Shown here: positions 666-63,031 of the stretch, in pieces | Numbering within the stretch: the stretch's first letter is position 1 | How the letters are laid out: each line of letters starts with the position of its first letter | Origin: Chondrilla cf. caribensis | Taxonomy: Eukaryota > Porifera > Demospongiae > Chondrillida > Chondrillidae | Length of the DNA: 64,000 nucleotides | Reading direction: 5' to 3' | NCBI GenBank assembly: GCA_964020155.1 | Contig: OZ026549.1 | Span: forward strand, 432,133-496,132 | Translations under genes and position numbers: made by a program | The notes under the pieces: model-generated | Seen by the model: only the letters and a program-made list of their open reading frames with translations | What the model was told of the DNA's origin: nothing | Database searches by the model: none

Positions 666-943
666 GTACCACATCACAAAACTGTCCTATTGCAGTCATC
701 ATAGCTGTAACTGTAGTGAACATCCTCATACTACTAGTCTCCATTACACTACTGGTCATTGGTGTCATGCTGATAGTGAAGACGAAGAGACACATACCCA
801 CAGTACAGTATGACCAGGAATACAAGGTACGGATTTATGATGAAGTGGGAGATCCTGTGAAGACCAGCAAAGACACTAAAGTCTATCAAGAATTGGATGT
901 CAACAAGATGGACGACACCAAGCAATATGCTACAATGAAGTGA
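666..943 (+). CDS. R1: 3' terminal exon of class A Ig/FN3 receptor (partial gene)
   Basis: Only the last exon is inside the window. It follows a CTGCAG acceptor at 660-665 in phase 1 and ends with TGA at 941-943. It encodes a short extracellular stub, one hydrophobic membrane segment (about 22 residues, rich in Ile/Leu/Val), a basic stop-transfer stretch (KTKRH) and a 45-residue tail. The tail carries four tyrosines: VQYDQE, RIYDEV, KVYQEL and QYATMK. The same exon occurs in R2 (6220-6497) and R3, so R1 is the end of a third copy whose ectodomain lies before the window. The sequence before it (1-665) is the stalk-to-membrane intron, filled with TG arrays. Function is inferred: a type I membrane receptor signalling through SH2-domain proteins. 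Confidence 0.8.
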
Positions 944-1049
944 TCCTTGACTGGAGCAGTGTGCATTGACTTATTATAGCGAGTGCATTTTGCATTAACT
1001 GAACATCACAAGATAATGATAAGTAGAGTATGCTCCAACTAATAACGCA

Positions 1050-2700
1050 TAGGTGTGAGATTTTGAAATAAGTATTACATCTGTATCATCTACATACAGT
1101 ATAGGTCCCTGACCTGATCTGTTACTGGAATTAAGCCCATTTGCACATAGTGACCAGTTGCAGAGATTGGATATTTGAAATGTGTCACCATATCATATCT
1201 TTAGTTCCCATGCAGTCACAATGGCCTCCATTTGACACCTATTACCATCCACACTCATGCATGTACACTTTTGTGTGGTATGTATGGACCCCGTGGTGAT
1301 CAGTGGGCTAATTACGATCACTAGTCACCCCAGTCTCCCTAGTGCCCATATGAGACACAGTAACAATACTCATGTATTGAAATCCCTGGCTCTGGAGGTG
1401 CTACAGGGATTGTGGTGATCAGCAAATAAAACTACATGAAGGGCCCCTGGTGAGCAGTGATCAAATTTGGAATCATCTCACTGGTCACCTTGTCTGGGTC
1501 TGTAGCTCTGTAGTACCTCCGTGGAAATGTACATACAAAATAATATAATGCATGTTGTTATGTATCATAATCATTGACATTGGTGAGACCAGGGTGACCA
1601 GCAATATAATGACCTTATAATTACCAGTCACGAGGTCTGTAGCACATCCAGAAGAGTGTGCATCCAACTGTATTTGTGTTATTACCTGTAACATGGATAC
1701 TGGTCAGGCCGTGGTGACTAGCAACAAATGTAGAACTACCAGGCTGGTCAACACCAGACCATACCACCTCCATAGGAATGTACATACAAAAGAATATACT
1801 ATTATAATATTATGTATCATACGTACACTATGGAGGCCGTAATAACTGGTGATAAAGCATATTTACTTGGTTATCACCAGGTCTATAGTACCTCTAGGAG
1901 GGTGTATATGCATCTCTATTTGTGCTTGATTTGACATATGGACACTGGAGAGGCTGTGGTGCATGTAACCAGCTTTAAATTTTCTTTCTTTAAAATTATC
2001 TTGCTGGTCACCATGAGGTCCATAGCACATCCAGGAGGTGTGCATGCATCAGTATTTGTGCTATTATGTCATATGGACACTTGAGAGGCAATGGTGACCA
2101 GCAACAAATGCTTTATTACCTATAGGCTGTCATATGGACACTAAGCAGGCCATGGTGACCAATGATAAATTAAACATTGCCTGTTATTACAAGATCTGTA
2201 GTAAATCAAGGTATATGGTGACATGCACTGCACTAACCCAAGAAGAGACCCAGTTTCAGGATCATGACCTGTGGTGCACATTTATGGCTTCAAAACACCA
2301 CTTTCTTTTGTAAACAAACTAACTGGCAGCCAGTTCAGTGCAGGTGGTTGAAACCAAAAACGTAGACAGACTTTCAACTGTACACACACAGAGAGAGGGA
2401 GAGAGACATGTATTACACCTCACAGTGGATCACATATCAGGTAATTTCGAGGTAGAAGGTAGAAATAGAATTAAGTTACACAGTAATGTTTTAATATACA
2501 CAGTCACATAAATGATATAGATTGTGACAGAATCATGACAAAGGAGAAGTAGTCTGAAACCTTACAACTTCACCTCACATCTTTATATACAGTGAACCCA
2601 CTGGGTAGGATACCAATCAAATACCCAACACCTGGTGACTGAGACACATCCTGCAGTACATAATATGTAGGCACACTGGGTTTAGTGTTCTGTTTTAGTC
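1050..2700 (+). repeat. Duplicated intergenic block downstream of R1
   Basis: This stretch matches 6904-8968 downstream of R2 over most of its length, for example CATACAGTATAGGTCCCTGA in both. It contains internal short repeats of GGTGACCAGCAA-like sequence. No coding exon is seen. It shows the unit of duplication was gene plus flank, about 5.5 kb. Confidence 0.75.
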
Positions 2701-3560: not shown

Positions 3561-3605
3561 CCTGAAAAAGATCTGAAGAAAGTACGTACGTAGTAGTAGA
3601 GTGAG

Positions 3606-3714
3606 ATGAGGAGTTTACCTATAGTCTGTAGTGTCATACTGGTGTGTGGAGTGTTCACCACTAATGGAGAATCAGGTGAGTAACAGATGTGTGTGTGTGT
3701 GTGTGAGTGTGTGT

Positions 3715-3790
<76 letters not shown>

Positions 3791-5832
3791 AGAGGAGTGG
3801 TTGTGAGGGAGAGAGGAGAACTGGTTATGAGGGTGAGAGGAGGACAGGTTGTGAGGGTGACAGGAGGAGTATATATATGTAGAAACATATCACAATACCA
3901 GGTCCTGTAATATTCTTCAGAAATGTACACCCCTTCATACACCTTCTCTCCCTCCACAGTTCATACTACTCCTAATGTGGTGATTGATGGATATACAGTC
4001 AGTTCAACCCTCAACGCTCTAGTTACTCTACCACTAGGAACAACTCTTATTCTAGTTTGTAGAATCAGTGGATTACCACATGGACTACAGACTAACTATC
4101 ACTGGACATGTCCAAATGGACCGTGTCAACAAACAGGATATGCCGGGAGAAAGATCAACAACAATATTATAGCCATCAATATAACCTCTACAAGTGATGG
4201 AGGGACATACACATGTAATGTCACTGCTGAAGGAAGGGAAGATAGTCAACGGTTTAAACTGAATGTTACTGGTCAGTGTTTGCAAGTGCATATTACTAGT
4301 ACAGTGTGTACATATACCCATGGTGATACACTGGTCTACTTCATACTGTGTACTTTAGGTGGTCAAGTTGTTCACAGTTATGGGAGACTGATATTCCATG
4401 AGAGAGTCATCACAGACAAACAACAACTACAACCACCAAACAATGCTAGTGGAGATGGGAGGATTGAGTGTAGAGTGAGCAGTGGAGGGGCTATGTTCAC
4501 ATATTTTGGACGCACTGTATCTACTGGCACTAGTGGAGATGTTTATCAGATCATAAGTGGATCTACTGCTACTTTAGTCATAAGAGATAGAGTTTTCAAC
4601 AATTTTGTGAATTTTGAAGGGAATTGTGCTGGTATCTACCACTACCTGTACTTGTCAAATGGTGAGTAGTGGGTGGAGTTAGGGTTGAGGTGCTGGCAAA
4701 CTGTGTATTATATTTGAGGTAAACAGTTTTTTGATAATCTCTACACTATGTGGTAGGTACTGACACTGTACTCCTGTAACTGTACTCCTACAAACTGTAT
4801 CTGTACTCCTACAAACTGTAAACATCACACTGCAAATGTAACAATATACATTTCTATTCTTTATTAGCTACCCTCCCTGATGTCTCTATAACTGGTACAA
4901 CCAGTACTGATACCAGTATCAAGGTGAACATTGGTACCATACCTAGTGGTATTGAGAGGGTTTTCATTGGATACCACAGACTGGACCTTGGAGTACCAGT
5001 AGTAGGAGAGTATGGGAATAATCGTGAGGGATCATCAAGAACATTCTCCTCACTAGTACCTGGTGCAAAGTACAGGATCACAGCATGGGGACTTGGTGGA
5101 AGTGATGATAGAAGAAGGAGTCAGTCACCAGCTGTGAGGGAGGTTACTACAATGGAAAAAAGTGAGTTGATGCAATGGTCAGTTAATTGGTCAGATAAGC
5201 AGTGTGCACACATCACTAATCAGTGGATAAATGCCTACAACATCTCATACATGTACATCCTACACAGATTCATCTCCTCCAAGACACCTCACTATAACTA
5301 GAGTGTTTGATGATGGGATTGAACTAAACTGGATACCACCTAGAAAACCTAACGGAGACATACGATATTACATCATCAAATACACTACACAAGATGGAAC
5401 ACAACAAGAGATCAACACTACAAACAACATCAACTACTACAACTTAACAGGACTAGAGAGAGGACAGACCTACTTCATCATCAGAGTGGTAGCTGTCAAC
5501 TCAGCTGGAGGTGGGGGAGGAAGTCAACCTATAACAAATTATGTACATAACTCAACAGTGGAGAGTACAAGTGAGTCGGAGTTGGAGGTATAGAGAGTGA
5601 TGTCAGAATATTGATTACTATATTATGTCTTCATCAACTAGAGTCAACAGAAACACCTACACCATCTCCTACAACCAGCACACCACCTCCTACAATCAGC
5701 ACACCAAGTGAGGGTAATACGGTACCACAGGATACCACAGGAACACCTACACATACACAAACATACAAAAAATTTGTTTTTGCCATAGTATGCTCTTACA
5801 TAGAATAATAATTATTTGGTAACAGTGTGTGT

Positions 5833-5870
<38 letters not shown>

Positions 5871-5992
5871 ACGCGTGTGTGTGTGCGTGCATGTGCGTGC
5901 GTGCGTGTGAGTGTGTGTGAGTGCGTGTGTGTGTGCATGTGTGTGAGTGTTTGTGTGTGTGAGTGTGTGTGTGTGTGTGCATGCGTGCGTGT

Positions 5993-6064
<72 letters not shown>

Positions 6065-6497
6065 ATGCGTGTATCAGTACTTGACTGCATATGTGTCAGC
6101 TCAGATTGAGGTGAGTGATTTTTCACTTCAGGTCACACATCATACAAAGACATGCATATACTTCTGTTTTTCATTTATTATGTCTGCAATCTATAAAGTA
6201 CATTCTTTATACTCTGCAGGTACCATATCACAAAACTGTCCTATTGCAGTCATCATAGCTGTAACTGTAGTGAACATCCTCATACTACTAGTCTCCATTA
6301 CACTACTGGTCATTGGTGTCATGCTGATAGTGAAGAGGAAGAGACACCCACCCACAGTACAGTATGACCAGGAATCCAAAGTACAGATTTATGATGAAGT
6401 GGGAGATCCTGTGAAGACCAGCAAAGACACTAAAGTCTATCAAGAATTGGATGTCAACAAGATGGACGACACCAAGCAATATGCTACAATGAAGTGA
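3606..6497 (+). CDS. R2: class A Ig-Ig-FN3-FN3 transmembrane receptor, short tyrosine tail
   Basis: Predicted exons: 3606-3675 (signal peptide MRSLPIVCSVILVCG), 3960-4271 (Ig1), 4359-4661 (Ig2), 4868-5161 (FN3-1), 5268-5570 (FN3-2), 5642-5707 (Thr/Pro stalk), 6220-6497 (membrane segment and tail); 541 residues, all introns GT-AG phase 1. Ig1 has the B-strand Cys (ILVCR), the core Trp (YHWTCP) and the F-strand DGGTYTC, plus an extra Cys pair around WTCPNGPC. Ig2 is Ig-like with IEC and GNC cysteines. FN3-2 has ELNWIPP and the usual NSAGGG end. Several NxS/T sites are present. The tail has IYDEV, VYQEL and YATM. Oddities: the Ig1-Ig2 intron is 87 nt with no in-frame stop, and the promoter region is split by an insertion. 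Two AATAAA signals follow the stop. The ligand is unknown. Confidence 0.85.
3690..3787 (+). repeat. TG array in R2 intron 1
   Basis: Dinucleotide array just after the signal-peptide exon donor. It is followed at 3787-3875 by a few copies of the intron-1 minisatellite. R3 and R8 have arrays at the same site. Confidence 0.9.
5825..6064 (+). repeat. TG array with GC-containing interruptions
   Basis: Long alternating purine-pyrimidine tract in the intron between the R2 stalk and membrane exons, including TGCGCACGCGTG. It is equivalent to the arrays at 74-545. Confidence 0.9.
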
Positions 6498-6685
6498 TCC
6501 TTGATTGGAGCAGTGTACATTGAGTCAATGACTTATTATAGCAAGTGCATTTTGCATTAACTGAACATCACAAGATAATGATAAGTAGAGTGTGCTCCAA
6601 CTAATAATGTGTGGGAAGTATGCTGAGTTCATCCCACATAGTGTGTGCAACTGGTGTGTGTAACTGGTATTTGAATGAGTTATGT

Positions 6686-8560: not shown

Positions 8561-8605
<45 letters not shown>

Positions 8606-8628
8606 CACACACACACACACACATGCAC

Positions 8629-9003: not shown

Positions 9004-9085
9004 ATGAGGAGTTTAACTATAGTCTGTAGTGTCCTACTGGTGTGTGGAGTGTTCTCCACTAATGGAGAATCAGGTGAGGAACAGA

Positions 9086-9141
<56 letters not shown>

Positions 9142-11952
9142 GTGAGAGAAGGACTGGTTGTGAGGGTGAGAGGAGGACTGGTTGTGAGGGTGAGAGGAAG
9201 ACTGGTTGTGAGGGTGAGAGGACTGGTTGTGAGGGTGAGAGGACTGGTTGTGAGGGTGAGAGAAGGACTGGTTATGAGGGTGAGGGGACTGGTTGTGAGG
9301 GTGAGGAGGACTGGTTGTGAAGAAGAGAGGAGGACCAGTTGTGAGGGAGAGAGGAGGACTGGTTGTGAGGGTGAGAGAACTGGTTGTGAGGGTGAGAGGA
9401 CTGGTTGTGAGGGAGAGACGACTGGTTGTGAGGGAGAGAGGAGGACTGGTTGTGAGGGAGAGAGGAGGACTGGTTGTGAGGGTGGGAGGACTGGTTGTGA
9501 AGGTGAAAGGAGGACTGGTTGTGAGGGTGAGAGGAGGACTGTTTGAGGAAGATATGTATAAACATATCACAAACTATAATACCGGGTCCTGTAACATTAT
9601 TTATTCAGAAATGTACACCCTTTCATACACCATCTCTCCCTCCACAGTTCATACTACTCCTAATGTGGTGATTGATGGCTACACAGTCAATTCAACCTTC
9701 AACTCTCCAGCTACTCTACCAATAGGAACAACTCTTATTCTAGTTTGTAGAATCAGTGGAATACCACATGGACTACAGACTAACTATCACTGGACATGTC
9801 CAAATGAACCGTGTCAACAAACAGGATATGCCGGGAGAAAGATCAACAACAATATTATAGCCATCAACATAACCTCTACAAGTGATGGAGGGACATACAC
9901 CTGTACTGTCACTGCTGAAGGAAGGGAAGCTAGTCAACAGTTTCAACTGAATGTTAATAGTCAGTGTTTGCATATTACTAGTACAGTGTGTACATACCCA
10001 TGGTGATACACTAGTCTACTTCATACTGTGTACTTTAGGTGGTCAAATTGTTCACAGTTATGGGAGACTGATACTTGATGAGAGAGTCATCACTGACAAA
10101 CAACAACTACAACCACCAAACAATGATAGTGGAGATGGGAGGATTGAGTGTAGAGTGAGCAGTGGAAATGCTAAGTTCATATATTATGGACGCACTATAG
10201 CAGATGGCACTAGTGGAGATATTTATCGGAATACACAAGGATCTACTGCTGCTGTAGTCATAAAAGATAGAGTTTTCAATAATTTTGTGAATTTTGAAGG
10301 GAGTTGTGCTGGCATCTTCCACTACCTGTACTTATCCAATGGTGAGTGGGGGTGGGGTTGTATAGGACAGTGATTGAGTAGTGGGTGGAGTTATATAGGA
10401 TCGAAGTACTGGAAAACTGTGTCATATTTGAGGTAAACAGTGATTTGATAATCTCTGCACTATGTGGTAGGAACGGACACTGTTCTATCACGCACCTTTA
10501 AACATCACACTGCATATACGTATGTAACATATATACATATCCATCCTTTATTAGCTACCCTCCCTGATGTCTCTATAACTGGTACAACCAGTACTGAGAC
10601 TAGTATCACTGTGACCATTGGTACTATACCTAGTGGTATTGGTAGGGTTATCATTGGATATCACAGACTGGACCTTGGAGTACCAGTAGGAGGAGAGTAT
10701 GTGCATAATGGTGGGAGATCATCAAGAACATTCTCCTCACTAGTACCTGGTGCTAAGTATAGGATTACAGCATGGGGACTTGGTGGTGGTGGTGATAGAA
10801 GAAGGAGTCAGTCACCAGCTGTGAGGGAGGTTACTACAATGGAACAAAGTGAGTTGATGCAATGGTCAGTTAATTGGTCACATAAGCAGTGTGCACAAAT
10901 CACTAATCAGTGGATAAATGACTAGAACATCTCATACATGTACATCCTCCACAGATCCATCTCCTCCAAGATACCTCACAATAAATAGAGTGTGCGATGA
11001 TGGGATTGAACTAAACTGGATACCACCTAGAGAACCTAATGGAGACATACAACATTACATCATCAAATACACTACACCAGATGGAACACAACAAGAGATC
11101 GACACTACAAACAACATCAACTACTACAACTTAACAGGACTAGAGAGAGGACAGACCTACCACATCATCAGAGTGGTAGCTGTCAACTCAGCTGGAGGTG
11201 GGGGAGGAAGTCGACCTATAACAAATTATGTACACAACCCAACAGTGGAGAGTACAAGTAAGTTAGAGTTGGAAGTGTTGAGAATTATGTCTGAATATTA
11301 ATTACTATATTATCATGTCTTCATCAACTAGAGTCACTAACACCTACACCATCTCCTACAACCAGCACATCATCTCCTACAACCAGCACACCAAGTGAGG
11401 GTATACTATAGTATAGTATACTACACCTACACATACACAAACATACTTTACTGTTATTGCCATATTATGCTTTATACATACAAAATAATTAATTCAGTAA
11501 CAATGATATCAATGGTTAACACTTGGGCAAGAGAGTGTGTTTGTGTGTTGGCTCAGATTAAGGGATGTGTTTCTGTACACCATGCATGGTCGTACATAAC
11601 CCAAAGACACACATACACTTCTGTTTTTTGATATAATATATTCTGCAATCTATAGAGTACATTCCTTCCATACTGCAGGTACCACATCACAAAACTGATT
11701 GCAGTCATCATAGCTGTAACTGCAGTGAACATCCTCATACTACTAGTCACCATTACACTACTGGTCATTGGTGTCATGCTGATAGTGAAGAGGAAGAGAC
11801 ACACACCCACAGTACAGTACGACCAGGAATCCAAGGTACGGATTTATGATGAAGTGGGAGATCCTGTGAAGACCAGCAAAGACACTAAAGTCTATCAAGA
11901 ATTGGATGTCAACAAGATGGACGACACCAAGCAATATGCTACAATCAAGTGA
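9004..11952 (+). CDS. R3: class A Ig-Ig-FN3-FN3 transmembrane receptor with altered last-exon acceptor
   Basis: Exons: 9004-9073 (signal peptide, MRSLTIVCSVLLVCG), 9648-9959 (Ig1), 10039-10341 (Ig2), 10555-10848 (FN3-1), 10955-11257 (FN3-2), 11332-11394 (stalk), then the membrane/tail exon ending at 11952. Compared with R1 and R2 the last exon has lost four bases (TCCT) after CAAAACTG near 11698. With the ancestral acceptor (exon start 11679) this gives an immediate TGA. The TTGCAG at 11699-11704 can instead act as acceptor: an exon 11705-11952 restores phase 1 and frame and keeps the whole membrane segment, giving 530 residues. The tail ends YATIK rather than YATMK, so the YxxM motif is lost. 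Either the shifted acceptor is used or R3 is a recent pseudogene. Confidence 0.75.
9090..9545 (+). repeat. TG array plus ~21-24 bp minisatellite in R3 intron 1
   Basis: A TG array (9090-9138) passes into roughly 18 copies of a unit containing GAGGACTGGTTGTGAGGGTG. The same unit fills intron 1 of R2, R5, R6, R7 and R8. The open reading frames across it are repeat artefacts. Confidence 0.9.
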
Positions 11953-20050: not shown

Positions 20051-23000
20051 ATGATACTGGAGAGTACCTTAGTTCTTATACTTCTTGTTGGTGGTGAGTT
20101 GGGCAGAGAGGATCATTGTAGCTGTATATTAGGATCACAATAATGGATACAGTACAGTACCAGCCACTGTGGTGTGGAGGTGGTGATACGCAGAGCCCAA
20201 CATACACTGTGCCAACAGATGTAAAGTACTACTGTAACAGTACATTGCATAAGTATATATTATATATAGTACACATTTGGGGGGCAAGTGGACTTCACCG
20301 TAGAGTGCTGACACCACTATGCCAATCTCAGAAAGTATAATAACTGCTACGTATACTTCCTCTCTTGAATCTAAGGGGGGCACTCTTGTACCAAAGTGGT
20401 GATCGATGGATACACAGTCAATTCAACCTTCAACTCTCCAGCTACTCTACCACTAGGAACAACTCTTATTCTAGTTTGTAGAATCAGTGGAATACCACAT
20501 GGACTACAGACGAACTATCACTGGACATGTCCAAATGAACTATGTCAACAAACAGGATATGTTGGGAGAAAGATCAACAACAATATTATAGCCATCAACA
20601 TAACCTCTACAAGTGATGGAGGGACATACACCTGTAATGTCAATGCCGAAGGAAGGGAAGATAGTCAACAGTTTCAACTGAATGTTAATGGTCAGTGTTT
20701 GCAAGTGCATATTACTAGTACAGTGTGTACATACCCATGGTGATACACTGGTCTACTTCATACTGTGTACTTTAGGTGGTCAAGTTGTTCACAGTTATGG
20801 GAGACTGATATTCCATGAGAGAGTCATCACTGACAAACAACAACTACAACCACCAAACAATGACAGTGGAGATGGGAGGATTCAGTGTAGAATGAGCAAT
20901 GGAAGGGCTGGGTTTTCATATCATGGACGCCCTATAGCAGGTGACACTAGTGGAGATGTTCATCAGATCAGAAGTGGATCTACTGCTACTGTAGTCGTAA
21001 GAGATGGAGTTTTCAACAATTTTGTGAATTTTGAAGGGAATTGTGCTGATATCTACCACTACCTGTTTCTATCCAATGGTGAGTAGTGTATGTAGTTAGG
21101 GTCAAGTTGTGGTTGAACTGCACAGCATGTGATGTTACAGTAGTAACCAAAACATGCACATAATAAATAATTAAGGCTACTCTACTATGCACTACACAAT
21201 GGACTATTTGAAATGCCTCAAACACATGATCTGAATACACAAGCATCACATACAGTACCAACTGGGTATAGACAATAGCTTACTAGTTTCATTTATGCAA
21301 TATAACAGCAAATGTGACATTTATTAAAGCATCGAGGAAAACATAGTTCTCCACATCTCAATCAATGATACTATATTACAATACTTAATATTTTTATGCT
21401 CTCTAGGTACTCTCCCTGATGTCTCTATAACTGGTACAACCAGTAATGATACCAGTGTCACTGTGACCATTGGTACCATACCTAGTGGTATTGAGAGGGT
21501 TATCATTGGATATCACAGACTGGACCTTGGAGTACCAGTAGTAGGAGAGTATGGGAATAATAATATGAGACCATCAAGAACATTCTCCTCACTGGTACCT
21601 GGTGCTAGGTACAGGATTACAGCATGGGGACTTGGTGGAAGTGATGATAGAAGAAGGAGTCGGTCACCAGCTGTGAGGGAAGTTACTACAATGGAACAAA
21701 GTGAGTTGATGCAATGGTCAGTTAATTGGTCACATAGGCAGTGTGCACACATCACTAATCAGTGGATAAATGCCTACAACATCTCATACATGTACATCCC
21801 ACACAGATCCATCTCCTCCAAGACACCTCACTATAACTAGAGTGTTTGATGATGGGATTGAACTAAACTGGATACCACCTAGTGAACCTAATGGAGACAT
21901 ACGACATTACATCATCAAATACACCACACAAGATAGAACACAACAAGAGATCAACACTACAAACAACATCACCTACTATAACTTAACAGGACTAGAGAGA
22001 GGACAGACCTATAACAACATCACAGTGGTAGCTGTCAACTCAGCTGGAGGTGGGAGAGGAAGTCAATCTACAACAAGTCATGTACATAACTCAACAGTGG
22101 AGTGTACAAGTGAGTTAGAGTATAGAGGGTGCTGTCTGAATACCAATTACTACAATATCCTGTATGTATTACTTACATATAATCATCAGAAATACCCGTA
22201 CCACCTCCTACAACCAGCACACCATCTCCTACAACCAGCACACCATCTCCTACAACCAGCACACCATCTCCTACAACCAGCACACCATCTCCTGCAACCA
22301 GCACACCATCTCCTACAACCAGCACACCAAGTGAGGGTACTATTGTACCACAAGAGGTGCACCTACATCACAATGTTATTGTCCCTCCATGCAGCCTTGA
22401 CGTCCATGGTCACAGAGTCTCCAAGCAACAATGCCTCAACAGTACCAACTACTTCAGGTTAGAAAAAATAAATGACTGTACATTCTTGTCAGATATGTAG
22501 TAGATGGGAAATGTACTCACTGCAGAAGACTAATTGACTAATTAGTCTTTGCTGTGAGTACAATTTCCCATGTACCAACCCAAGGAGGGATTTATCTATC
22601 ATGTATCCTGGCAACCAAGAAGTGTATCAAAATTAATCAGGTTTTGTCAAAAAGTACATCAACTTGACCTGTTCTGAGCTAGTACATGGGAAATGTACAT
22701 AGGTCAGTTCCTTTGATGTTACCTTCAACCAGGATACACGACTCACTGTAACAACAGAGTGAATTACACCATTAGTTGACAGTGTGAAAGTCTTTAGAGC
22801 ATCTTCCAGGAAATACATATGTATGTACATGACCACAAACATTGAATGTGTGTGGAGGAAGCCATTCAACACCACAACCTATTTCCCACAAAATTTAAAC
22901 AACTTGAATGACCGTGTGTATAGAGCACAGGCTTCCCATTGTGGGCACCACGTAGGTTGGGTCAGGTGACCTGCTGTAGAGGAGGGGTGTCATCATAAAT

Positions 23001-24724: not shown

Positions 24725-24851
24725 CCAGAGGGAGGTCACTACAAGGGGAGTTATGGGGGAGGTCACTACAAGGGGAGTTGTGGGGGAAGTCACTACAAGG
24801 GGAGTTGTGGGGGAGGTCACTACAAGGGGAGTTGCGGGGGAGGTTATTGAA
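24725..24851 (+). repeat. 27-bp G-rich minisatellite upstream of R5 (about 4 copies)
   Basis: Tandem units containing GGTCACTACAAGGGGAGTTG, about 210 bases before the R5 signal exon. It is the shortest true array of the family. Confidence 0.9.
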
Positions 24852-44594: not shown

Positions 44595-46115
44595 CAGAAG
44601 GTGGTTACTACAAGGGGAGTTGTGGGGGAGGTCACTGCAAGGGGAGTTGTGGGGGAGGTCACTACAAGGGGAGTTGTGGGGGAGGTCACTGCAAGGGGAG
44701 TTGTGGGGGAGATCACTGTAAGGGGAGTTGTGGGGGAGGTCACTACAAGGGGAGTTGTGGGGGAGGTTACTGTAAGGGGAGTTGTGGGGGAGGTTACTAC
44801 AAGGGGAGTTGTGGGGGAGGTCACTACAAGGGGAGTTGTGGGGGAGGTCACTACAAGGGGAGTTGTGGGGGAGGTTACTACAAGGGGAGTTGTGGGGGAG
44901 GTAACTACAAGGGGAGTTGTGAGGGAGGTCACTGTAAGGGGAGTTGTGGGGGAGGTCACTGCAAGGGTGCAAGGGGAGTTGTGGGGGAGGTCACTACAAG
45001 GGGAGTTGTGGGGGAGATCACTGCAAGGGGAGTTGTGCGGGAGGTCACTACAAGGGGAGTTGTGGGGGAGGTCACTGTAAGGGGAGTTGTGGGGGAGGTT
45101 ACTGCAAGGGGAGTTGTGGGGGAGGTCACTGCAAGGGGAGTTGTGGGGGAGGTCACTACAAGGGGAGTTGTGGGGGAGGTTACTACAAGGGGAGTTGTGG
45201 GGGAGGTAACTACAAGGGGAGTTGTGAGGGAGGTCACTGTAAGGGGAGTTGTGGGGGAGGTCACTGCAAGGGGAGTTGTGGGGGAGGTCACTGCAAGGGG
45301 AGTTGTGGGGGAGGTCACTACAAGGGGAGTTGTGGGGGTGGTCACTGCAAGGGGAGTTGTGGGGGAGGTCACTGCAAGGGGAGTTGTGGGGGAGGTCACT
45401 ACAAGGGGAGTTGTGAGGGAGGTCACTACAAGGGGAGTTGTGGGGGAGGTCACTACAAGGAGAGTTGTGGGGGAGGTCACTACAAGGGGAGTTGTGGGGA
45501 AGGTTACTACAAGGGGAGTTGTGGGGGAGGTCACTACAAGGGGAGTTGTGGGGGAGGTCACTACAAGGGGAGTTGTGGGGGTGGTCACTGCAAGGGGAGT
45601 TGTGGGGGAGGTCACTGCAAGGGGAGTTGTGGGGGAGGTCACTACAAGGGGAGTTGTGAGGGAGGTCACTACAAGGGGAGTTGTGGGGGAGGTCACTACA
45701 AGGAGAGTTGTGGGGGAGGTCACTACAAGGGGAGTTGTGGGGAAGGTTACTACAAGGGGAGTTGTGGGGGAGGTCACTACAAGGGGAGTTGTGGGGGAGG
45801 TCACTACAAGGGGAGTTGTGAGGGAGGTCACTACAAGGGGAGTTGTGGGGGAGGTCACTACAAGGGGAGTTGTGGGGGAGGTCACTGCAAGGGGAGTTGT
45901 GGGGGAGGTCACTGCAAGGGGAGTTGTGGGGGAGGTCACTGTAAGGGGAGTTGTGGGGGAGGTCACTGCAAGGGGAGTTGTGGGGGAGGTCACTGTAAGG
46001 GGAGTTGTGGGGGAGGTCACTGTAAGGGGAGTTGTGGGGGAGGTCACTACAAGGGGAATTGTGGGGGAGGTTACTACAAGGGGAGTTGTGGGGGAAGTTA
46101 TTGTAAGGGGGTGAA
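44595..46115 (+). repeat. 27-bp minisatellite upstream of R8 (about 56 copies)
   Basis: Largest array in the window, with ACTACAAGG, ACTGCAAGG and ACTGTAAGG variants. A nine-monomer block of 243 bp is repeated in tandem, marked by GGGGGTGGTCAC near 45335 and 45578. Both strands are open over more than 1 kb solely because of the 27-bp period. Confidence 0.95.
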
Positions 46116-46493: not shown

Positions 46494-51191
<4,698 letters not shown>

Positions 51192-51372
51192 TTACTGCAA
51201 GGGGAGTTGTGGGGGAGGTCACTACAAGGGGAGTTGTGGGGGAGGTCACTACAAGGGGAGTTGTGGGGGAGGTCACGACAAGGGGAGTTGTGGGGGAGGT
51301 GACTACAAGGGGAGTTGTGGGGGAGGTCACTACAAGGGGAGTTGTGGGGGAGATCACTACAAGGGGAGGTGT
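51192..51372 (+). repeat. 27-bp minisatellite upstream of R9 (about 7 copies)
   Basis: Same unit as upstream of class B genes, about 375 bases before the R9 signal exon. Confidence 0.9.
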
Positions 51373-51747
51373 GAAAGTTGATAAATGCACTTTAGACTGC
51401 TTTAGAGTATCTACAAAGTACAACTAGTGGGATTCATGTCAGCAGGAGAAATAGCAAGAAGTAGGTGGTCTTTTAACAGATCATGTGCCAACAGCAGGTA
51501 ATAAATATTTGGACCAGAAGGCACAGTACAGAAATAGTTGACCTCACTCACACTCAGTAATAATATAATGGTATACAGGCATTAGCTATATGCAATAGAA
51601 TAGTCATTGTAGGTACAACTCTAATTATATTATATAATAAATCAACTAACAGGTCAGATAATGTTGTTAAATAATCTACTTAAAGCCCTATAAGTGTGCA
51701 AGGAATTACTGAAGCAAAGACACTTGTGTGGCTGTTCAGTGGAGAAG
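51373..51747 (+). repeat. Class C 5' flank, copy 1
   Basis: Conserved before R9, R10 (55310-55709) and R11 (60925-61326), for example AGAAATAGC and GTAGGTGGTCTTTTA. It contains CCCTATAAGTGTG about 60 bases before the ATG, a possible TATA-type element. Confidence 0.65.
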
Positions 51748-53941
51748 ATGATACTGGAGAGTACCTTAGTTCTTGCACTTCTGGTTGGTGGTGAGTTAGA
51801 ATATCAGGATCTCTAAAACTGTACACTGATATCCGTTGAATAGGCACACACACAATACCACTCACTCTGGCAGGGTGGTGTTGATATGAATAGCTTCACA
51901 CTATCCATACAGGTGGGGTGGGAACTACTGATGGGGGGAATACTCAGGTAACAAGATATCTAGGTTCACTGGACATTTCAGAGAGCACACACTCTATAGA
52001 GAACATACAACTACTATCTTCCTAGAGTATACACTACAATGTCTGCATCCGGTGACAGTCTTACGTGTACTGTACATATGTGCTTTTGATTCTACATGTA
52101 TGTAGGGACTCAGTCTCTTCCTACTCCTAATGTGGTGATTGATGGATACACAGTCAATTCAACCATCAACTCTCCAGCTACTCTACCACTAGGAACAACT
52201 CTTATTCTAGTTTGTAGACTCGGTGGAATACCACATGGAATACAGACTAACTATCACTGGACATGTCCAAATGGACCGTGTCAACAAACAGGATATGATG
52301 GGAAAAAGATCAACAACAATATTATAGCCATCAACATAACCTCTACAAGTGATGGAGGGACATACACCTGTAATGTCACTGCTCAAGGAAGGGAAGATAG
52401 TCAACAGTTTCAACTGAATGTTAATGGTCAGTGTTTGCAAGTGCATATTACTAGTACAGTGTGTACATACCCATGGTGATACACTGCTCTACTTCATACT
52501 GTGTACTTTAGGTGGGCAAGTTGTTCACAGTTATGGGAGACTGATATTCAATGAGAGAGCCATCACTGACAAACAGCAACTACAACCACCAAACAATGAT
52601 AGTGGAGATGGGAGGATTGAATGTACAGTGAGCAGTGGAGGGGCTATGTTCTCATATCATGGACGCACTGTAACAACTGACACTAGTGAAGATGTTCATC
52701 AGATCAGAAGTGGATCCACTGCTACTGTAGTCATAAGAGATAGAGCTTTCAACAATTTTGTGAATTTTGAAGGGAATTGTGCTGGTATCTACCACTACCT
52801 GTTCCTATCCAATGGTGAGTAGTGGGTGGAGTTAGGGTTGAGGTGCTGGCAAACTGTATGTCATATTTGAGGTAAACAGTGATTTGGTATTCTTTACACC
52901 ATGTAGTGGGAACTGACACTGTACAGTACAGTCCAAAATAAATGTAACGGTAACGGATAAAACTTACCAGTTAAACCGAAAACCGTTAACTTTTTCAAAG
53001 AATCTTCACCTGAAAACCATTAACTTTTTTGAAGAAGTGTTACCCGAAAACCGTTAGCGGTTTTCGGATAATCATTAACTGAATATCATATACGTACGTA
53101 CGAATACGTATATACATCACAGCACAGGAGGAGAGCTTAATAGAAGTGTGATTTCAGCGACTCGGAAAGAATGTTTCTTGGAGCGAAAGAATGGAACTTG
53201 CTTCAGTGAGAGTGTAGCTTCTTCTGTTAGTAAGGACAACAATCTTGCCTCAATAAAACTCGCAGTTTGTGATCTACTCATGTGTTACGTCATGGAAATG
53301 CGCTTACGTTATGCGTTAACGGTTTTCAGTTAACGGTTAATGGCGAACGGTGCCCTGATAAAGGTTGGCGTTTATCTGTTATCTGAAAATTGGCAAACGA
53401 AATTACCGTTATCTTTTTTATGGACCGTACCGTACTCCTCCTCCTGCATATGCAACGTATATTTATTCTTTATTAGGTACCTTCCCTGATGTTTCTATAA
53501 CTCATACAACCAGTACTGATACCAGTATCACTGTGAACATTAGTACCATACCTAGTGGTATTGAGAGGGTTATCATTGGATATCACAGACTGGACCTTGG
53601 AGTACCAGTAGTAGGAGAGTATGGGAATAATGGTATGAGCTCATCAAGAACATTCTCCTCACTAGTACCTGGTGCTAAGTACAGGATCACAGCATGGGGA
53701 CTTGGTGGAGGCAAGGATACTGATAGAAAGAGAAGTCAGTCACCAGCTGTGAGGGAGGTTACTACAATGGTAAAAAGTGAGTTGATGCAATGGTCTATTA
53801 ATTGATGACATAAGCAGTGTGCACACATCACTAATCAGTGGATAAATGCCTATAATATTTCATACATGTACATTCTCCATGGATCCATCTCCTCCAAGAG
53901 TTATATCTAAAGTGTGTGATGAGATGGAACTATTCGGATAA
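51748..53941 (+). CDS. R9: class C Ig-Ig-FN3 protein without membrane segment (truncated; possible pseudogene)
   Basis: Exons: 51748-51790 (signal peptide MILESTLVLALLVGG), 52106-52426 (Ig1), 52512-52814 (Ig2), 53477-53776 (FN3-1). The next module should start near 53883, but its acceptor reads CCATGG where paralogues have CCACAG, so the AG is lost. If it were used, the reading would be PSPPRVISKVCDEMELFG and stop at 53939-53941 (341 residues). Without splicing, the FN3-1 reading runs on through SELMQWSIN to a TGA at 53803-53805. Either product lacks a membrane segment and would be secreted. Downstream sequence matches the 3' end of R10, so a deletion has joined the start of FN3-2 to the last residues and 3' flank of an R10-like gene. 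Confidence 0.65.
52926..53434. mobile_element. Insertion in the R9 Ig2-FN3-1 intron with inverted ends
   Basis: The left part (GTCCAAAATAAATGTAACGG) is complementary to the right part (CCGTTATCTTTTTTATGGAC). The R10 intron reads CTGTACTCCTCCTCCTGCAT without the insert, giving the empty site. The interior is rich in GTTAACGGTT motifs. Confidence 0.75.
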
Positions 53942-54489: not shown

Positions 54490-55306
54490 CAGAGGGAGGT
54501 TACTTCAAGGGGAGTTGTGGGGGAGGTCACTGCAAGGGGAGTTGTGGGGGAGGTCGCTACAAGGGGAGTTGTGGGGGAGGTCACTGCAAGGGGAGTTGTG
54601 GGGGAGGTCGCTACAAGGGGAGTTGTGGGGGAGGTCACTACAAGGGGAGTTGTGGGGGAGGTCACTACAAGGGGAGTTGTGGGGGAGGTCACTACAAGGG
54701 GAGTTGTGGGGGAGGTCACTACAAGGGGAGTTGTGGGGGAGGTCACTACAAGGGGAGTTGTGGGGGAGGTCACTACAAGGGGAGTTGTGGGGGAGGTCAC
54801 TACAAGGGGAGTTGTGGGGGAGGTCACTACAAGGGGAGTTGTGGGGGAGGTCACTGCAAGGGGAGTTGTGGGGGAGGTCACTACAAGGGGAGTTGTGGGG
54901 GAGGTCACTGCAAGGGGAGTTGTGGGGGAGGTCACTACAAGGGGAGTTGTGGGGGAGACCACTACAAGGGGAGTTGTGGGGGAGGTCACTACAAGGGGAG
55001 TTGTGGGGGAGGTCACTGTAAGGGGAGTTGTGGAGGAGGTCACTGCAAGGGGAGTTGTGGGGGAGGTCACTGCAAGGGGAGTTGTGGGGGAGGTCACTAC
55101 AAGGGGAGTTGTGGGGGAGGTCACTGCAAGGGGAGTTGTGGGGGAGGTCACTACAAGGGGAGTTGTGGGGGAGGGCACTACAAGGGGAGTTGTGGGGGAG
55201 GTCACTACAAGGGGAGTTGTGGGGGAGGTCACTACAAGGGGAGTTGTGGGGGAGGGCACTACAAGGGGAGTTGTGGGGGAGGTCACTACAAGGGAGAATT
55301 ATGGAA
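54490..55306 (+). repeat. 27-bp minisatellite upstream of R10 (about 30 copies)
   Basis: Array of the GGTCACTACAAGGGGAGTTG unit with GGTCGCTACAAGG and GGGCACTACAAGG variants. Confidence 0.95.
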
Positions 55307-55709: not shown

Positions 55710-58700
55710 ATGATACTGGAGAGTACCTTAGTTCTTGCACTTCTGGTTGGTGGTGAGTTAGAATATCAGGATCTCTAAAACTGTACACTGATATCCGTTG
55801 AATAGGTACACACACAATACCACTCACTCTGGCAGGGTGGTGTTGATATGAATAGCTTCACACTATCCATACAGGTGGGGTGGGAACTACTAATTGGGGA
55901 ATACTCAGGTAACAAGATATCTAGGTTCACTGAATATTTCAGAGAGCACTCACTCTATAGAGAACATACAACTGCTATTCTCCTAGAGTATACACTACAA
56001 CGTCTGTATCCGGTGACAGTCTTACGTGTACTGTACATATATGTGCTTTTGGTTCTACATGTATGTAGGGACTCAGTCTCTTCCTACTCCTAATGTGGTG
56101 ATTGATGGATACACAGTCAATTCAACCATCAACTCTCCAGCTACTCTACCACTAGGAACATCTGTTATTCTAGTTTGTAGAATCAGTGGAATACCACATG
56201 GACTACAGACTACCTATCACTGGACATGTCCAAATGAACCATGTCAACAAACAGGATATGATGGGAGAAAGATCGACAACAATATTATAGCCATCAACAT
56301 AACCTCTACAAGTGATGGAGGGACATACACCTGTAATGTCACTGCTCAAGGAAGGGAAGATAGTCAACACTTTCAACTGAATGTTAATGGTCAGTGTTTG
56401 CAAGTGCATATTACTAGTACAGTGTGGACATACCCATGGTGATACACTGGTCTACTTCATACTGTGTACTTTAGGTGGGCAAGTTGTTCACAGTTATGGG
56501 AGACTGATACTCAATGAGAGAGTCATCACTGACAAACAACAACTACAACCACCAAACAATGATAGTGGAGATGGGAGGATTGAGTGTACAAATAGCAGCG
56601 GAGGGGCTTTGTTCTCATATCATGGACGCACTGTAACAACTGACACTAGTGAAGATGTTCATCAGATCAGAAGTGGATCTACTGCTACTGTTGTCATAAG
56701 AGATAGAGCTTTCAACAATTTTGTGAATTTTGAAGGGGATTGTGCTGGTATCTTCCACTACCTGTTCCTATCCAATGGTGAGTAGTGGGTGGAGTTAGGG
56801 TTGAGGTGTTGGCAAACTGTATGTCATATTTGTGATTTGGTAATCTTTACACCATGTAGTGGGAACTGACACTGTACTCCTCCTCCTGCATACGCAACGT
56901 ATATTTATCCTTCATTAGATACCCTCCCTGATGTCTCTATAACTGATACAACCAGTACTGAGACCAGTATCACTGTGAACATCAGTACCATACCTAGTGG
57001 TATTGAGAGGGTTATCATTGGATATCACAGACTGGACCTTGAAGTACCAGTAGTAGGAGAGTATGTGAATAATCGTGAGGGATCATCAAGAACATTCTCC
57101 TCACTGGTACCTGGTGCTAAGTACAGGAGTACAGCATGGGGACTTGGTGGAGGCAAGGATACCGATAGAAAGAGAAGTCGGTCACCAGCTGTGAGGGAGG
57201 TTACTACAATGACACCAAGTGAGTTGATGCAATGGTCAGTTAATTGGGCACATAAGCAGTGTGCACACATCGCTAATCAGTAAATAAATGTCTACAACAT
57301 CTCATACATGTACATCCTCCACAGATCCGTCTCCTCCAAGACACCTCACTAGAACTAGAGTGTTTGATGATGGGATTGAACTAAACTGGATACCACCTAG
57401 AGAACCTAATGGAGACATACGACATTACATCATCAAATACACTACACAAAATGGAACACAACAAGAGATCAACACTACAAACAACATCAACTACTACAAC
57501 TTAACAGGACTGGAGAGAGGACAGACCTACAACAACATCAGAGTGGTAGCTGTCAACTCAGCTGGAGGTGGGGGAGGAAGTCAACCTATAACAAATTATG
57601 TACATAACCCAACAGAGGAGAGTACAAGTGAGTGAGTGTTATAAGTATAGTAAAACCATTCATATCTGGACGGTATGGGAACAAGGGTGCCTGCAACTAT
57701 GAATTTACAATTGCAAAAAGCAGTGTGCACACATCACTAATCAGTGGATAAATGCCTACAACATCTCATACATGTACATCCTCTACAGATCCATCTCCTC
57801 CAAGACACCTCACTATAACTAAATCGTTTGATGATGGGATTGAACTAAACTGGATACCACCTAGAGAACCTAATGGAGACATACGACATTACATCATCAA
57901 ATACACTACACAAAATGGAACACAACAAGAGATCAACACTACAAACAACACCAACTACTACAACTTAACAGGACTAGAGATAGGACAGACCTACAACATC
58001 ACGGTGGTAGCTGTCAACTCAGCTGGAGGTGGGGGAGGAAGTCAACCTATAACAAATTATGTTCCAAGTGAGTTGGGATTCATGCAATAAAGAATGCACA
58101 AACAATTTCACTTTTCTTTGAGAGTGCCATTTAAGGTGCAATGTCCTACACTTGTGCATGTACAGCTGGCTGTCCACTTGGACTCTTCAACATTGCACCT
58201 AATACTACCGAGGTGAATGAAACTCAACAAGTGGAACATCCAATGTGTGGTTCGTGTAATGCAACTGAAGGTGAAAGAGGTTACTTGGAGAGAGATTCAT
58301 TCTGCCATTATTGTGAGTTGACAGTGATAGTCATACAAATACAGACTAGTACTCAGCACTGTACAACGTATTGCCTCACAAATTCAAGTGCACTCATTCA
58401 GAATTCAATATGTACAGTGACTGACTCACAACTAAGTTACAAAATACATGTATCATACATACAGTGAGTGTTTAGTCACCGTGCGTGAGGTGCTTAGAGC
58501 TATGTACGTACTACATAGTCTGTTACATATACACCGATTCCTGCTCACATGCAGGTTGGAATACTGTGTCTCCAATTCTGTCCAAGATACGTTTCCCCCA
58601 GGAACAAAGACCCATGCTACTTCGCTGGAAGATACCAGACTTCGTTACATGCAAAATTGATGGATTTATACTTTCATTATTCGACATGACAACTAATGAG

Positions 58701-58853
58701 ACAATAAGCGAAGTGGAAGTGGCCAGTCATAAGAGGACATACCGTTTTCGCAATATAACGCATGGAAACAGGTACCAGTTCAGCATTGAGATGAAGAGAG
58801 AAGGAGAGCTCAGCAAAGCTGCCGTGTTTGCCATGAGCATCATTCAAAATTGA
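55710..58853 (+). CDS. R10: class C secreted Ig-Ig-FN3(x3)-Cys-rich-FN3 protein
   Basis: Exons: 55710-55752 (signal peptide MILESTLVLALLVGG), 56069-56389 (Ig1), 56475-56777 (Ig2), 56919-57218 (FN3-1), 57325-57627 (FN3-2), 57789-58067 (second copy of FN3-2), 58136-58312 (cysteine-rich module), 58555-58853 (divergent FN3-like module, stop TGA); 674 residues, frame continuous. The Cys-rich exon reads YTCACTAGC, MCGSC and FCHY; splicing to the next exon creates a further Cys (TGT across the junction), giving CxxC pairs. The last module has LLRWKIPD and YRFRNITHGNRYQFSI, typical of FN3 strands. No hydrophobic membrane segment follows, so the product should be soluble. It is the only complete class C gene here. 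The doubled FN3-2 arose by local duplication including intron sequence. Confidence 0.8.
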
Positions 58854-60371: not shown

Positions 60372-60922
60372 CCAGAGAGAGGTCACTGCAAGGGGAGTTG
60401 TGGGGGAGGTCACTGCAAGGGGAGTTGTGGGGGAGGTTACTACAATGGAAGTTATGGGGGAGGTCAGTACAAGGGGAGTTGTGGGGGAGGTCACTACAAG
60501 GGGAATTGTGGGGGAGGTCACTGCAAGGGGAGTTGTGGGGGAGGTTACTACAAGGGGAGTTGTGGGGGAGGTCACTACAAGGGGAGTTGTGGGGGAGGTT
60601 ACTACAAGGGGAGTTGTGGGGGAGGTTACTACAAGGGGAGTTGTGGGGGAGGTCACTACAAGGGGAGTTGTGGGGGAGGTTACTACAAGGGGAGTTGTGG
60701 GGGAGGGCACTGCAAGGGGAGTTGTGGGGGAGGTCACTACAAGGGGAGTTGTGGGGGAGGTCACTACAAGGGGAGTTGTGGGGGAGGTTACTACAAGGGG
60801 AGTTGTGGGGGAGGTCACTACAAGGGGAGTTGTGGGGGAGGTCACTACAAGGGGAGTTGTGGGGGAGGGCACTACAAGGGGAGTTGTGGGGGAGGTTACT
60901 ACAAGGGGAGTTGTGGGAAGTT
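60372..60922 (+). repeat. 27-bp minisatellite upstream of R11 (about 20 copies)
   Basis: Same unit; one degenerate monomer (TACAATGGAAGTTATGG) near 60440. Confidence 0.95.
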
Positions 60923-61326
60923 GACAAATGCTGGTACTAGATTGCTCAAAGTACCTATAGAGTACGACTAGTGGGATTTCTGTCGGCAGGAGAAATAGCG
61001 AGAAGTAGGTGGTCTTTTAGCAGATCATGTGCCAACAGCAGGTAATAAATATTAGGACCAGAAGGCACAGTACAGAAATAGTTGACCTTGACGCTTACAC
61101 TCAGGAATAATATAATGGTATACAGGCATTAGCTATGCAATAGAATAGTCACTGTACCACCATCACACCATGTCACTAAAGGCTACATGAGCCACTCCAG
61201 GTACAACTCTAATTATATTACATAATAAATCAACTAATGGGACAGATAATGTTGTTAAATAAAGACCTATAAGTGTGTAACAAATTACTGAAGCACAGGC
61301 ACTTGTGTGGCTGTTCAGTGGAGAAG

Positions 61327-63031
61327 ATGATACTGGAGAGTAGCTTAGTTCTTGCACTTCTTGTTGGATCAGGTGGTGAGTTAGAAAGGCAGGATATTCA
61401 AAACTGTACACTGCTATCCGTTGAATAGGCACACACACAATACCACTCACTCTGGCAGGGTGGTGTTGATATGAATAGCTTCACACTATCCATACAGGTG
61501 GGGTGGGAACTACTGATGGGGAATACTCAGGTAACAAGATATCTAGGTTCACTGGATATTTTAAAGAGCACACACTCTATAGAGTACATACAACTACTAT
61601 CGGCTCTCAGAGTACACACTACAATGACTACATCCGGTCTTACAACGTGTGCTGTACATATGTGCTTTGGTTCTACATATATTTAGGGGCTCAGTCCTTT
61701 ATTCCTCTTCCTACTCCTAATGTGGTGATTGATGGCTATACAGTCAGTTCAACCTTCAGCTCTTCGGCTACTCTACCACTAGGAACAACTATCATTCTAG
61801 TTTGCAAACTAACACCACAGGGACTACAGACTAACTATCACTGGACATGTCCAAATGAACCGTGTCAACAAACAGGATATGATGGGAGAAAGATCAACAA
61901 CAATATTATAGCCATCAACATAACCTCTACAAGTGATGAAGGCACATACACCTGTAATGTCACTGCTGGAGGAAGGGAAGCTAGTCAACAGTTTCAACTG
62001 AATGTTAATGGTCAGTGTTTGCAAGTGCATATTACTAGTACAGTGTGTACATACCCATGGTGATACACTGGTCTACTTCATACTGTGTACTTTAGGTGGT
62101 CGAGTTGTTCATAGTTATGGGAGACTGATATTCAATGAGAGAGTCATCACTGACAAACAACAACTACAACCACCAAACAATGATAGTGGAGATGGGAGGA
62201 TTGAGTGTAGAGTGAGCAGTGGAGGGGCTAGGTTCTCATATTATGGACGCACCGTACCAACTGGCACTAGTGAAGATGTTCATCAGATCATAAATGGATC
62301 TACTGCTACTGTAGTCATAAGAGAAAGAGCTTTCAACAATTTTGTGAATTTTGAAGGGAATTGTGCTGGTATCTTCCACTATCTGTTCCTATCCAATGGT
62401 GAGTAGTGGGTGGAGTTAGGGTTGAGGTGTTGGCAAACTGTATGTAATATTTGAGGTAAACAGTGATTTGATAATCTCTGCACTATGTGGTAGGAACTGA
62501 CACTGTAATCCTCCTCCTGCATACGTAAAAACGTATATCCATTCATATTAGGTACCCTCCCAGATGTCTCTATAACTGGTACAACCAGTACTAATACCAG
62601 TATCAAGGTGAACATTGGTACCATACCTAGTGGTATTGAGAGGGTTATCATTGGATATCACAGACTGGACCTTGGAGTACCAGTAGGAGGAGAGTATGTG
62701 AATCATCGTGAGGGATCAAGGACATTCTCTTCACTAGTACCTGGTGCTAAGTACAAAATCACAGCATGGGGACTTGGTGGAGGCAAGAATACCGATAGAA
62801 AGAGAAGTCAGTCACCAACTGTAATGGAGGTTACCACGAAGACACCAAGTACAATAGAACAAAGTGAGTTGATGCAATGGTCAGTTAATTGGTGACATAA
62901 GCAGTGTGCACACATCACTAATCAGTGGATAAATGCCTATAGCATCTCATACATGTACATCCTCCACAGCTCCATCTCCTCCAACAGAGCCTGGTTGGAC
63001 CGTGTGTGATGAGATGGAACTATTCGGATAA
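61327..63031 (+). CDS. R11: class C Ig-Ig-FN3 short secreted protein
   Basis: Exons: 61327-61375 (signal peptide MILESSLVLALLVGSGG, two residues longer than in R9), 61687-62010 (Ig1), 62096-62398 (Ig2), 62552-62863 (FN3-1), 62970-63031 (short terminal exon ending VCDEMELFG, TAA); 349 residues, all junctions GT-AG and in phase. Ig1 is two residues shorter in the B-C region (VCKLTPQGLQ for VCRISGIPHGLQ). FN3-1 has an extended end (TKTPSTIEQ) that joins the two alternative endings seen in other copies. The terminal exon shares its last residues with R9, so both descend from one FN3-2 truncation. No membrane segment is visible; a soluble form is likely. Confidence 0.75.

Follow-up and report, generated by a model that had tools for sequence, protein, structure and literature searches.

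A large array of Ig/FN3 receptor genes with shared ectodomains and different tails in a demosponge genome, a candidate recognition complex

Here, we analysed a tandem array of genes for putative receptors with immunoglobulin (Ig) and FN3 domains, part of which lies in the window, i.e. the whole 64,000-nucleotide stretch under study (C4:432133-496132, contig OZ026549.1, of a 137-Mb assembly in 37 contigs). A previous sequence-only reading had described eleven adjacent same-strand genes in it (R1-R11), with nearly the same Ig-Ig-FN3-(FN3) ectodomain and either a short tyrosine tail, a long tail or no membrane segment, and had interpreted them as a candidate recognition complex of an early-branching animal. 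The observation itself was confirmed, and the array is larger than the window could show: at least 70 units (28 on the plus and 42 on the minus strand of C4:323-843 kb, counted by the second Ig-like exon, D2, among the matches listed) and at least four classes of membrane tail, versus two in the window. Recognition is the most likely job of the array, and our best explanation is a multigene recognition-receptor complex working like the paired receptors of vertebrates (probability about 0.65). The earlier interpretation is partly supported, by amino-acid changes being overrepresented among the variants that many copies share, by different tails on shared ectodomains, and by motifs in some tails that resemble the immunoreceptor tyrosine-based activation and inhibition motifs (ITAM and ITIM).

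That matching ectodomains carry different tails was borne out by trees of the four ectodomain exons Ig1, D2, FN3a and FN3b, on which tail class changed 13, 13, 13 and 11 times; 17.5, 17.6, 14.6 and 11.7 changes are expected from shuffling (11.7-17.6 overall), and three is the minimum for four classes. The test used 41 of 48 Ig1 and 41 of 47 D2 sequences, with units lacking an assigned tail, tail-less units and one Ig1 without usable D2 omitted. The ectodomains thus appear to be weakly sorted by tail and largely interchangeable between classes. At the level of sequence, their variants were shown to belong to a single pool, mixed from gene to gene and across both arrays, the plus-strand and the minus-strand one. 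Variants present in six or more copies comprised 95 nonsynonymous (N) and 17 synonymous (S) changes (N/S 1.71 per site), versus 342 N and 149 S among singletons (N/S 0.70; Fisher P = 0.001), in a frequency-spectrum test that does not pick sites. Purifying selection alone would put an amino-acid excess in rare, not common, variants. In the cytoplasmic part of the class A tails, singletons were 4 N to 10 S, compared with 342 to 149 in the ectodomain (P = 0.002). Two of three introns, both short, diverge less (0.042 and 0.055) than the exons (0.060-0.100).

Extent of the array and gene models

Ten same-strand ectodomain units were found in the window by tblastn with the exons of R5 (Ig1 starts at 3965, 9653, 20393, 25586, 31454, 39951, 46928, 52123, 56086 and 61713), in addition to one tail, that of R1. 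The eleven adjacent genes described before therefore hold as ten units on one strand, whereas R1 is represented in the window by its tail only and the window covers just part of the array. The main array occupies C4:323-496 kb on the plus strand and, after a gap, 573-843 kb on the minus strand, with the two halves oriented toward each other. No unit was found in the readable part of the ~40 kb from R11 to the minus-strand boundary gene, and two genes of the array have a doubled ectodomain.

The exon order is leader, Ig1, D2, FN3a, FN3b, stalk, and membrane span plus tail. Each of the ten window units is preceded by a leader-type exon, and two types of this exon occur. When spliced at GT-AG phase-1 introns, R5 reads as a single open 724-codon frame that starts with ATG and ends in a stop; phase-1 introns were assumed in the exon models of the other units, and the tail-exon starts given below are modelled acceptors. 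The R2 frame is open from leader through FN3b, and its stalk exon lacks a canonical donor. Among the ectodomain exon matches of the plus array, 111 of 114 were open (two contain stops in the model and one is a fragment), and Ig1 plus D2 were open in all 20 minus units fetched of the 42 listed, which were picked by hand to span the minus array. Exon by exon, plus-array units show 73-93% protein identity to R5, two weak outlying Ig1 matches being omitted from this range. Because the exon order is repeated, splice sites are present and frames are open, a chance origin of the pattern is excluded.

R1-R3 have short tails and R4-R8 long ones. The gene units in the window are as follows (all on the plus strand):

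R1, 666-943, plus: membrane span and short class A tail exon; ectodomain upstream of the window, at C4:429.4-431.0 kb
R2, 3606-6497, plus: leader 3606-3675, Ig1 3960-4271, D2 4359-4661, FN3a 4868-5161, FN3b 5268-5570, Thr/Pro stalk about 5641-5740 (non-canonical donor), membrane span and class A tail 6220-6497
R3, 9004-11952, plus: leader at 9004, Ig1 9648-9959, D2 10039-10341, FN3a 10555-10848, FN3b 10955-11257, membrane span and class A tail 11705-11952 (in frame only with a shifted acceptor)
R4, 20051-24024, plus: leader at 20051, Ig1 20376-20690 (acceptor uncertain), D2 20776-21078, FN3a 21407-21700, FN3b 21807-22109, membrane span and long class B tail 23219-24024
R5, 25060-29211, plus: leader 25060-25129, Ig1 25587-25898, D2 25984-26286, FN3a 26465-26758, FN3b 26865-27167, stalk 28275-28373, membrane span and class B tail 28418-29211
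R6, 30923-34543, plus: leader at 30923, Ig1 31434-31748, D2 31834-32124, FN3a 32301-32591, FN3b 32698-33000, membrane span and class B tail about 33729-34543
R7, 36509-43184, plus: leader at 36509, Ig1 39946-40254, D2 40340-40642, FN3a 41306-41590, FN3b 41697-41999, membrane span and class B tail 42280-43184
R8, 46494-49835, plus: leader at 46494, Ig1 46926-47237, D2 47755-48057, FN3a 48227-48526, FN3b 48633-48935, membrane span and class B tail 49132-49835
R9, 51748-53941, plus: leader at 51748, Ig1 52106-52426, D2 52512-52814, FN3a 53477-53776, FN3b remnant 53882-53941 ending in a stop, acceptor AG lost; without membrane segment
R10, 55710-58853, plus: leader 55710-55752, Ig1 56069-56389, D2 56475-56777, FN3a 56919-57218, FN3b 57325-57627, second FN3b 57789-58068, Cys-rich exon 58136-58312, FN3-like exon 58555-58853 ending in a stop; without membrane segment
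R11, 61327-63031, plus: leader at 61327, Ig1 61687-62010, D2 62096-62398, FN3a 62552-62848, FN3b remnant 62972-63031 ending in a stop; without membrane segment

Soluble forms had been proposed for R9-R11. These genes do lack a membrane segment, but they are not of one kind. R10 is a coherent alternative gene, in which an extra FN3b is followed by a Cys-rich exon (a single copy in the genome, with no second one found) and an FN3-like exon below the Pfam cut-off. In R9 and R11, a shortened FN3b ending in ...VCDEMELFG and a stop runs into sequence found behind the last exon of R10. Both look like deletion derivatives of an R10-like gene, i.e. truncated rather than clean soluble receptors, and are possibly secreted or decayed.

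With regard to domain identity, Pfam named Ig1 and FN3b of R5 and gave only a weak fn3 match for FN3a; Ig1 passed the Ig_2 and I-set cut-offs, not that of V-set (19.7 bits vs a cut-off of 26). D2 had no Ig family match in Pfam at E<=1, and a PDB sequence search with it returned one meaningless match (E = 1.7). Foldseek with its AlphaFold model (predicted local distance difference test score, pLDDT, 77) gave 50 best PDB rows, almost all of them Ig or antibody-complex structures judging by their titles, with modest scores (best E 3.4e-3, TM-score about 0.4-0.5), and D2 may be called Ig-like by predicted fold. FN3a was assigned to FN3 by model and Foldseek as well (pLDDT 86, best E 2e-5). The Ig-Ig ectodomain of the sequence-only reading is thus firm for its first domain, whereas the second, unnamed by Pfam, is Ig-like by predicted fold only; with these two domains the proteins fall in the immunoglobulin superfamily (IgSF).

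A search of the genome with D2 gave at least 150 matches, and all D2 counts in this study refer to the 150 listed. At least 104 of these were at least 50% identical to the D2 of R5, including 34 outside the main array:

C4 3.70-3.73, 4.16-4.21, 4.46-4.49 and 4.56 Mb; C2 3.66-3.70 Mb; C6 4.90-4.96 Mb: D2 units outside the main array (34 in all)

The remaining 46 are remote relatives, 42 of which lie at C4 2.41-3.24 Mb; tails in that region are 48-65% like class A, in alignments that end before the last tyrosine site. Further FN3 exon groups were observed on contigs C6, C7, C14, C17 and C18. The tRNA and Rfam scans of the window gave 0 matches. Upstream of the leader exons of R5-R11 there is a 27-bp minisatellite with up to 55 copies; in the fetched class A block it has at most two copies per place. 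Its positions in the window are:

24730-24844, 29941-30705, 35930-36282, 44603-46095, 51194-51373, 54494-55294 and 60379-60917: 27-bp minisatellite

Tail classes and mixing of variants

We found 61 membrane-tail matches in the C4 array, which fall into four classes (A 20, B 20, C 17 and D 4) laid out in blocks along it; the window shows only class A, class B and tail-less forms. Class A, with 54 cytoplasmic residues, occurs in 19 genes at 329-444 kb and one match at 537.5 kb. The long class B tails contain 37-residue YDD cassettes (five plus and 15 minus at 570-662 kb), the ITIM-like class C is located at 672-826 kb and class D at 820-841 kb. No tail could be assigned for 11 of the 42 minus D2 units.

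YDEV is known to attract Nck, and the other motifs were read by the ITAM and ITIM rules. The class A pattern is YDEV plus an ITAM-like Yxx[LI]-x10-Yxx[LI]; YDEV occurs in 15 and the loose ITAM spacing in 16 of the 19 plus-array A tails. Each of the five plus-array B tails has 3-6 YD-x-[VIL] sites, and the single C tail and single D tail that were read have two ITIM patterns each (shuffle P 0.03). Yxx-hydrophobic sites exceeded chance (P < 0.05, 500 shuffles) in 10 of the 11 tails displayed, including that of a Halisarca relative described below. No kinase domain was detected in the tail exons read, which end without one, and a receptor tyrosine kinase reading was therefore rejected. Tyrosine kinases occur elsewhere in the genome; of the matches listed, none falls within the C4 arrays. 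The genome also has 89 SH2 matches, Src-type kinases, and a cluster of SH2 and tyrosine-kinase genes at C14:1.55-2.14 Mb whose products are possible signalling partners.

At C4:537.5-542.2 kb on the minus strand, the class A tail at 537.5 kb is preceded by three exons for Sushi domains and one for an Ig domain that scores below cut-off, and two unnamed exons of the same locus were read as Ig-like and FN3-like. It seems from this sequence that the class A tail is common to a different, Sushi-bearing ectodomain beside the array.

Distance and mixing tests were based on 24 complete plus units. Distances in one exon did not predict those in another (no significant correlation), and exon trees disagreed among themselves. 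The r2 between variants dropped from 0.25 for sites less than 6 bp apart to about the background level from some 6-15 bp on, and all four allele combinations were present in 3430 of 4656 site pairs (with inter-exon distances set roughly). Both alleles of 92 of the 117 informative plus-array sites occur among the 20 minus units fetched, and in the joint plus and minus set linkage disequilibrium fades within a few bases in exons. In the D2-FN3a intron, which is also the most diverged one, linkage between variants lasts tens of bases. Variable positions of the ectodomain include D2 43-56 and FN3a 58-62 and 85-86 (alignment numbering), which would be located mostly in loops according to the models.

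Proposed recognition function and its alternatives

Under the recognition-complex explanation, each gene would encode a type I surface protein in which a leader, two Ig-like and two FN3 domains are followed by a stalk rich in Thr and Pro, the membrane span and a tail rich in tyrosine. Clustering of the receptor would be triggered by a ligand that a second cell exposes, either a microbe or a cell of another sponge; Src-type kinases would phosphorylate the tail, and SH2 proteins would then read the class-specific sites, i.e. YDEV plus ITAM-like in class A, the YD-x-[VIL] array in class B and ITIM-like sites in class C; one ligand class could therefore be coupled to different outputs, with an outcome specific to each class. 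Copies without a membrane span might act as secreted decoys, although two of the three look truncated.

Several observations weigh against this explanation. Overall ectodomain pN/pS (ratio of nonsynonymous to synonymous polymorphism) was 1.05-1.16, with every bootstrap interval including 1, and relaxed constraint could give the same. When the frequency spectrum was cut at 1-2 versus three or more copies, the contrast gave P = 0.054. For the cytoplasmic part of the A tails, pN/pS was 0.63 (0.27-1.53), an interval overlapping that of the ectodomain, and a tail-versus-ectodomain contrast by pN/pS alone was rejected on this account. The third intron compared, D2-FN3a, diverges more than the exons (0.182; 25 of 46 kept). 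The sites most variable in the plus array had a pN/pS of 2.46 (1.90-3.40) on the minus array, versus 0.72 elsewhere; this effect arose because both arrays share alleles, and it was gone when only variants private to the minus array were counted as a control (0.79 at picked vs 0.86 at other sites, Fisher P = 1.0), so that the claim of site selection across arrays was withdrawn. Some sorting by tail class was present in the trees of Ig1 (P = 0.012), D2 (P = 0.008) and both joined (P = 0.002), and was not significant in those of FN3a and FN3b. Among the tails, one class B and one class C match contain a stop codon, YDEV is missing from four of the 19 A tails, strict ITAM spacing was found in none of the three A tails displayed, and one of the five B tails has a strict ITAM plus ITIM pattern while four have neither. 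Distances in the two halves of a single exon are likewise uncorrelated, which leaves the mixing test without a positive control. Exchange exon by exon is unsupported when the halves are uncorrelated too; mixing is therefore finer than exons, or partly due to recurrent mutation. It is likely that exchange in short tracts causes it, perhaps with some contribution from recurrent mutation.

A narrower form of the same explanation, with overlapping odds, takes the genes as sensors of microbes or symbionts, that is, a germline repertoire directed at molecules of the bacterial surface, whose diversity would come from an arms race and not from kin recognition. Dense microbial communities inhabit sponges, the array has a neighbouring Sushi-domain gene that ends in a class A tail, and many intact copies, shared diversified ectodomains and several tails speak for both forms. 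On the other hand, nothing microbe-specific was seen, and no lectin-type domain was found above cut-off in the ten window exons scanned. We regard such sensors as possible, with odds well below even, and allorecognition proper as somewhat more doubtful. Ordinary adhesion or tissue-patterning molecules (nephrin-like, with a YDEV tail, Nck and actin) expanded in tandem, without any non-self recognition, would fit an ectodomain of Ig and FN3 domains and the YDEV found in many of the tails, and a pN/pS near 1 alone does not call for selection. However, ~70 similar copies have ectodomain variants common to four tail classes, a state that to our knowledge adhesion families seldom reach, and the common variants are enriched for amino-acid changes; we consider adhesion alone unlikely.

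Still less probable is a neutral tandem expansion mixed by gene conversion, in which the copies would be mostly redundant and drifting and no recognition function would be needed. It would account for the overall pN/pS of about 1, the failed cross-array control, the truncation of R9 and R11 and the near linkage equilibrium, but not easily for the 111 of 114 open exon matches, the conserved A tail, an amino-acid excess in common rather than rare variants, or the 57% ectodomain identity with Halisarca. Assembly is difficult where tandem arrays contain minisatellites, and haplotypes or repeats might have been wrongly set side by side; yet none of 1081 unit pairs is identical over Ig1 plus D2 (the closest pair differs by 3.8%), the assembly has only 37 contigs for 137 Mb, and simple duplication would not give an array on two strands with four tail classes and doubled ectodomains. 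An assembly artefact is thus very improbable.

The genes behind self/non-self recognition in sponges are an open question, for which the locus offers a bounded candidate. A review calls the allorecognition mechanisms of invertebrates 'a complete mystery' and describes the candidate proteins of sponges, cnidarians and ascidians as not conserved (PMC12065747). If the recognition-complex explanation is true, paired-receptor logic (one outer part, several signalling tails) reaches back to sponges, and germline diversity would have a simple source in the near-complete shuffling of variants among the copies. A bolder version, which we consider speculative and rather unlikely, is that the locus is a sponge histocompatibility-type complex, a paired activating/inhibitory system at the base of animals, whose pooled ectodomain variants pass in very short tracts from gene to gene, from array to array and across tail classes and give the germline of each individual its own recombined recognition code.

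Relatives and comparison with known systems

The closest named protein was the 'Insulin-like protein receptor' of the demosponge Halisarca dujardinii (UniRef A0AA96MNW2; P0001). Like the array genes, it has Ig, a second Ig-like domain, FN3, FN3 and a membrane span in the same order in the alignment, with 57% identity over 97% of the ectodomain query, and its tail contains LYDEV and LYAEVDK pieces as in class C; unlike them, it is a single record named as an insulin-type receptor. Pfam found only Ig, FN3 and a sub-threshold PKD match in it, so that its domains do not support the name and, with no kinase present, the insulin-receptor reading was rejected. The other 67 of 69 profile matches were to ENA or JGI contigs or P0002. 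At 33-85% identity over part of the query, they suggest a receptor family spread over several genomes; some of these matches may come from this same species. No named vertebrate protein was among the 2 and 69 matches, in searches that scored only candidates sharing most words. A Src kinase of the genome was 80% identical to that of the demosponge Suberites domuncula, 72-73% to that of Sycon and 71% or less to those of other named organisms (120 best of 976 rows). Because Halisarca has the closest named protein and this Src kinase is nearest to that of Suberites domuncula, the genome is that of a demosponge, which bears out the early-branching animal proposed before.

Sponge aggregation factors are secreted Calx-beta/Wreath-type proteins, whereas the array genes would encode membrane Ig/FN3 receptors; no Calx-beta match was found in the ten window exons scanned (Pfam, E<=1), and membership in this family was rejected. 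Nephrin-type adhesion receptors have an Ig plus FN3 ectodomain and YDEV tail sites, as the array does, but are single or few genes with no array of tail classes. Aggregation factors are presented as a candidate recognition system of sponges (PMC11999971, PMC12065747), and no report of a sponge Ig/FN3 receptor array was found in the literature searched, weak evidence since most subscription papers lie outside such a search.

The Botryllus fuhc locus (fuhc-sec, fuhc-tm, fester and related genes) is described as ca. 800 kb with secreted and membrane forms and Ig/Sushi ectodomains (PMC12065747). It resembles the array in layout, by its clustered receptors and possibly by its secreted and membrane forms, and a Sushi gene also flanks the C4 array; the domain order differs, and fuhc is backed by genetics while the array is known from sequence alone. 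Two papers describe Hydractinia Alr as an IgSF family of 41 members in one complex with ITIM/ITAM-type motifs and a reported role in recognition (PMC11999971, PMC12065747), with proteins made of V-set plus I-set Ig domains (PMC11999971). The likeness, which is one of layout only, lies in an early-animal IgSF gene complex with ITIM/ITAM-type motifs. The V-set plus I-set pattern was not found here, as Ig1 of R5 is below the V-set cut-off, D2 has no Ig match and FN3 follows; and, unlike Alr, the array combines FN3 domains with ectodomain variants pooled between genes and with tails of four classes arranged in blocks.

Vertebrate KIR/LILR are tandem genes with interchangeable Ig-type ectodomains and different signalling tails. 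The array shares with them tandem genes, shared Ig-type ectodomains and differing tails, a likeness of layout for which we do not claim homology; unlike KIR/LILR, it has FN3 domains, long YDD-cassette tails and no ITIM in class A.

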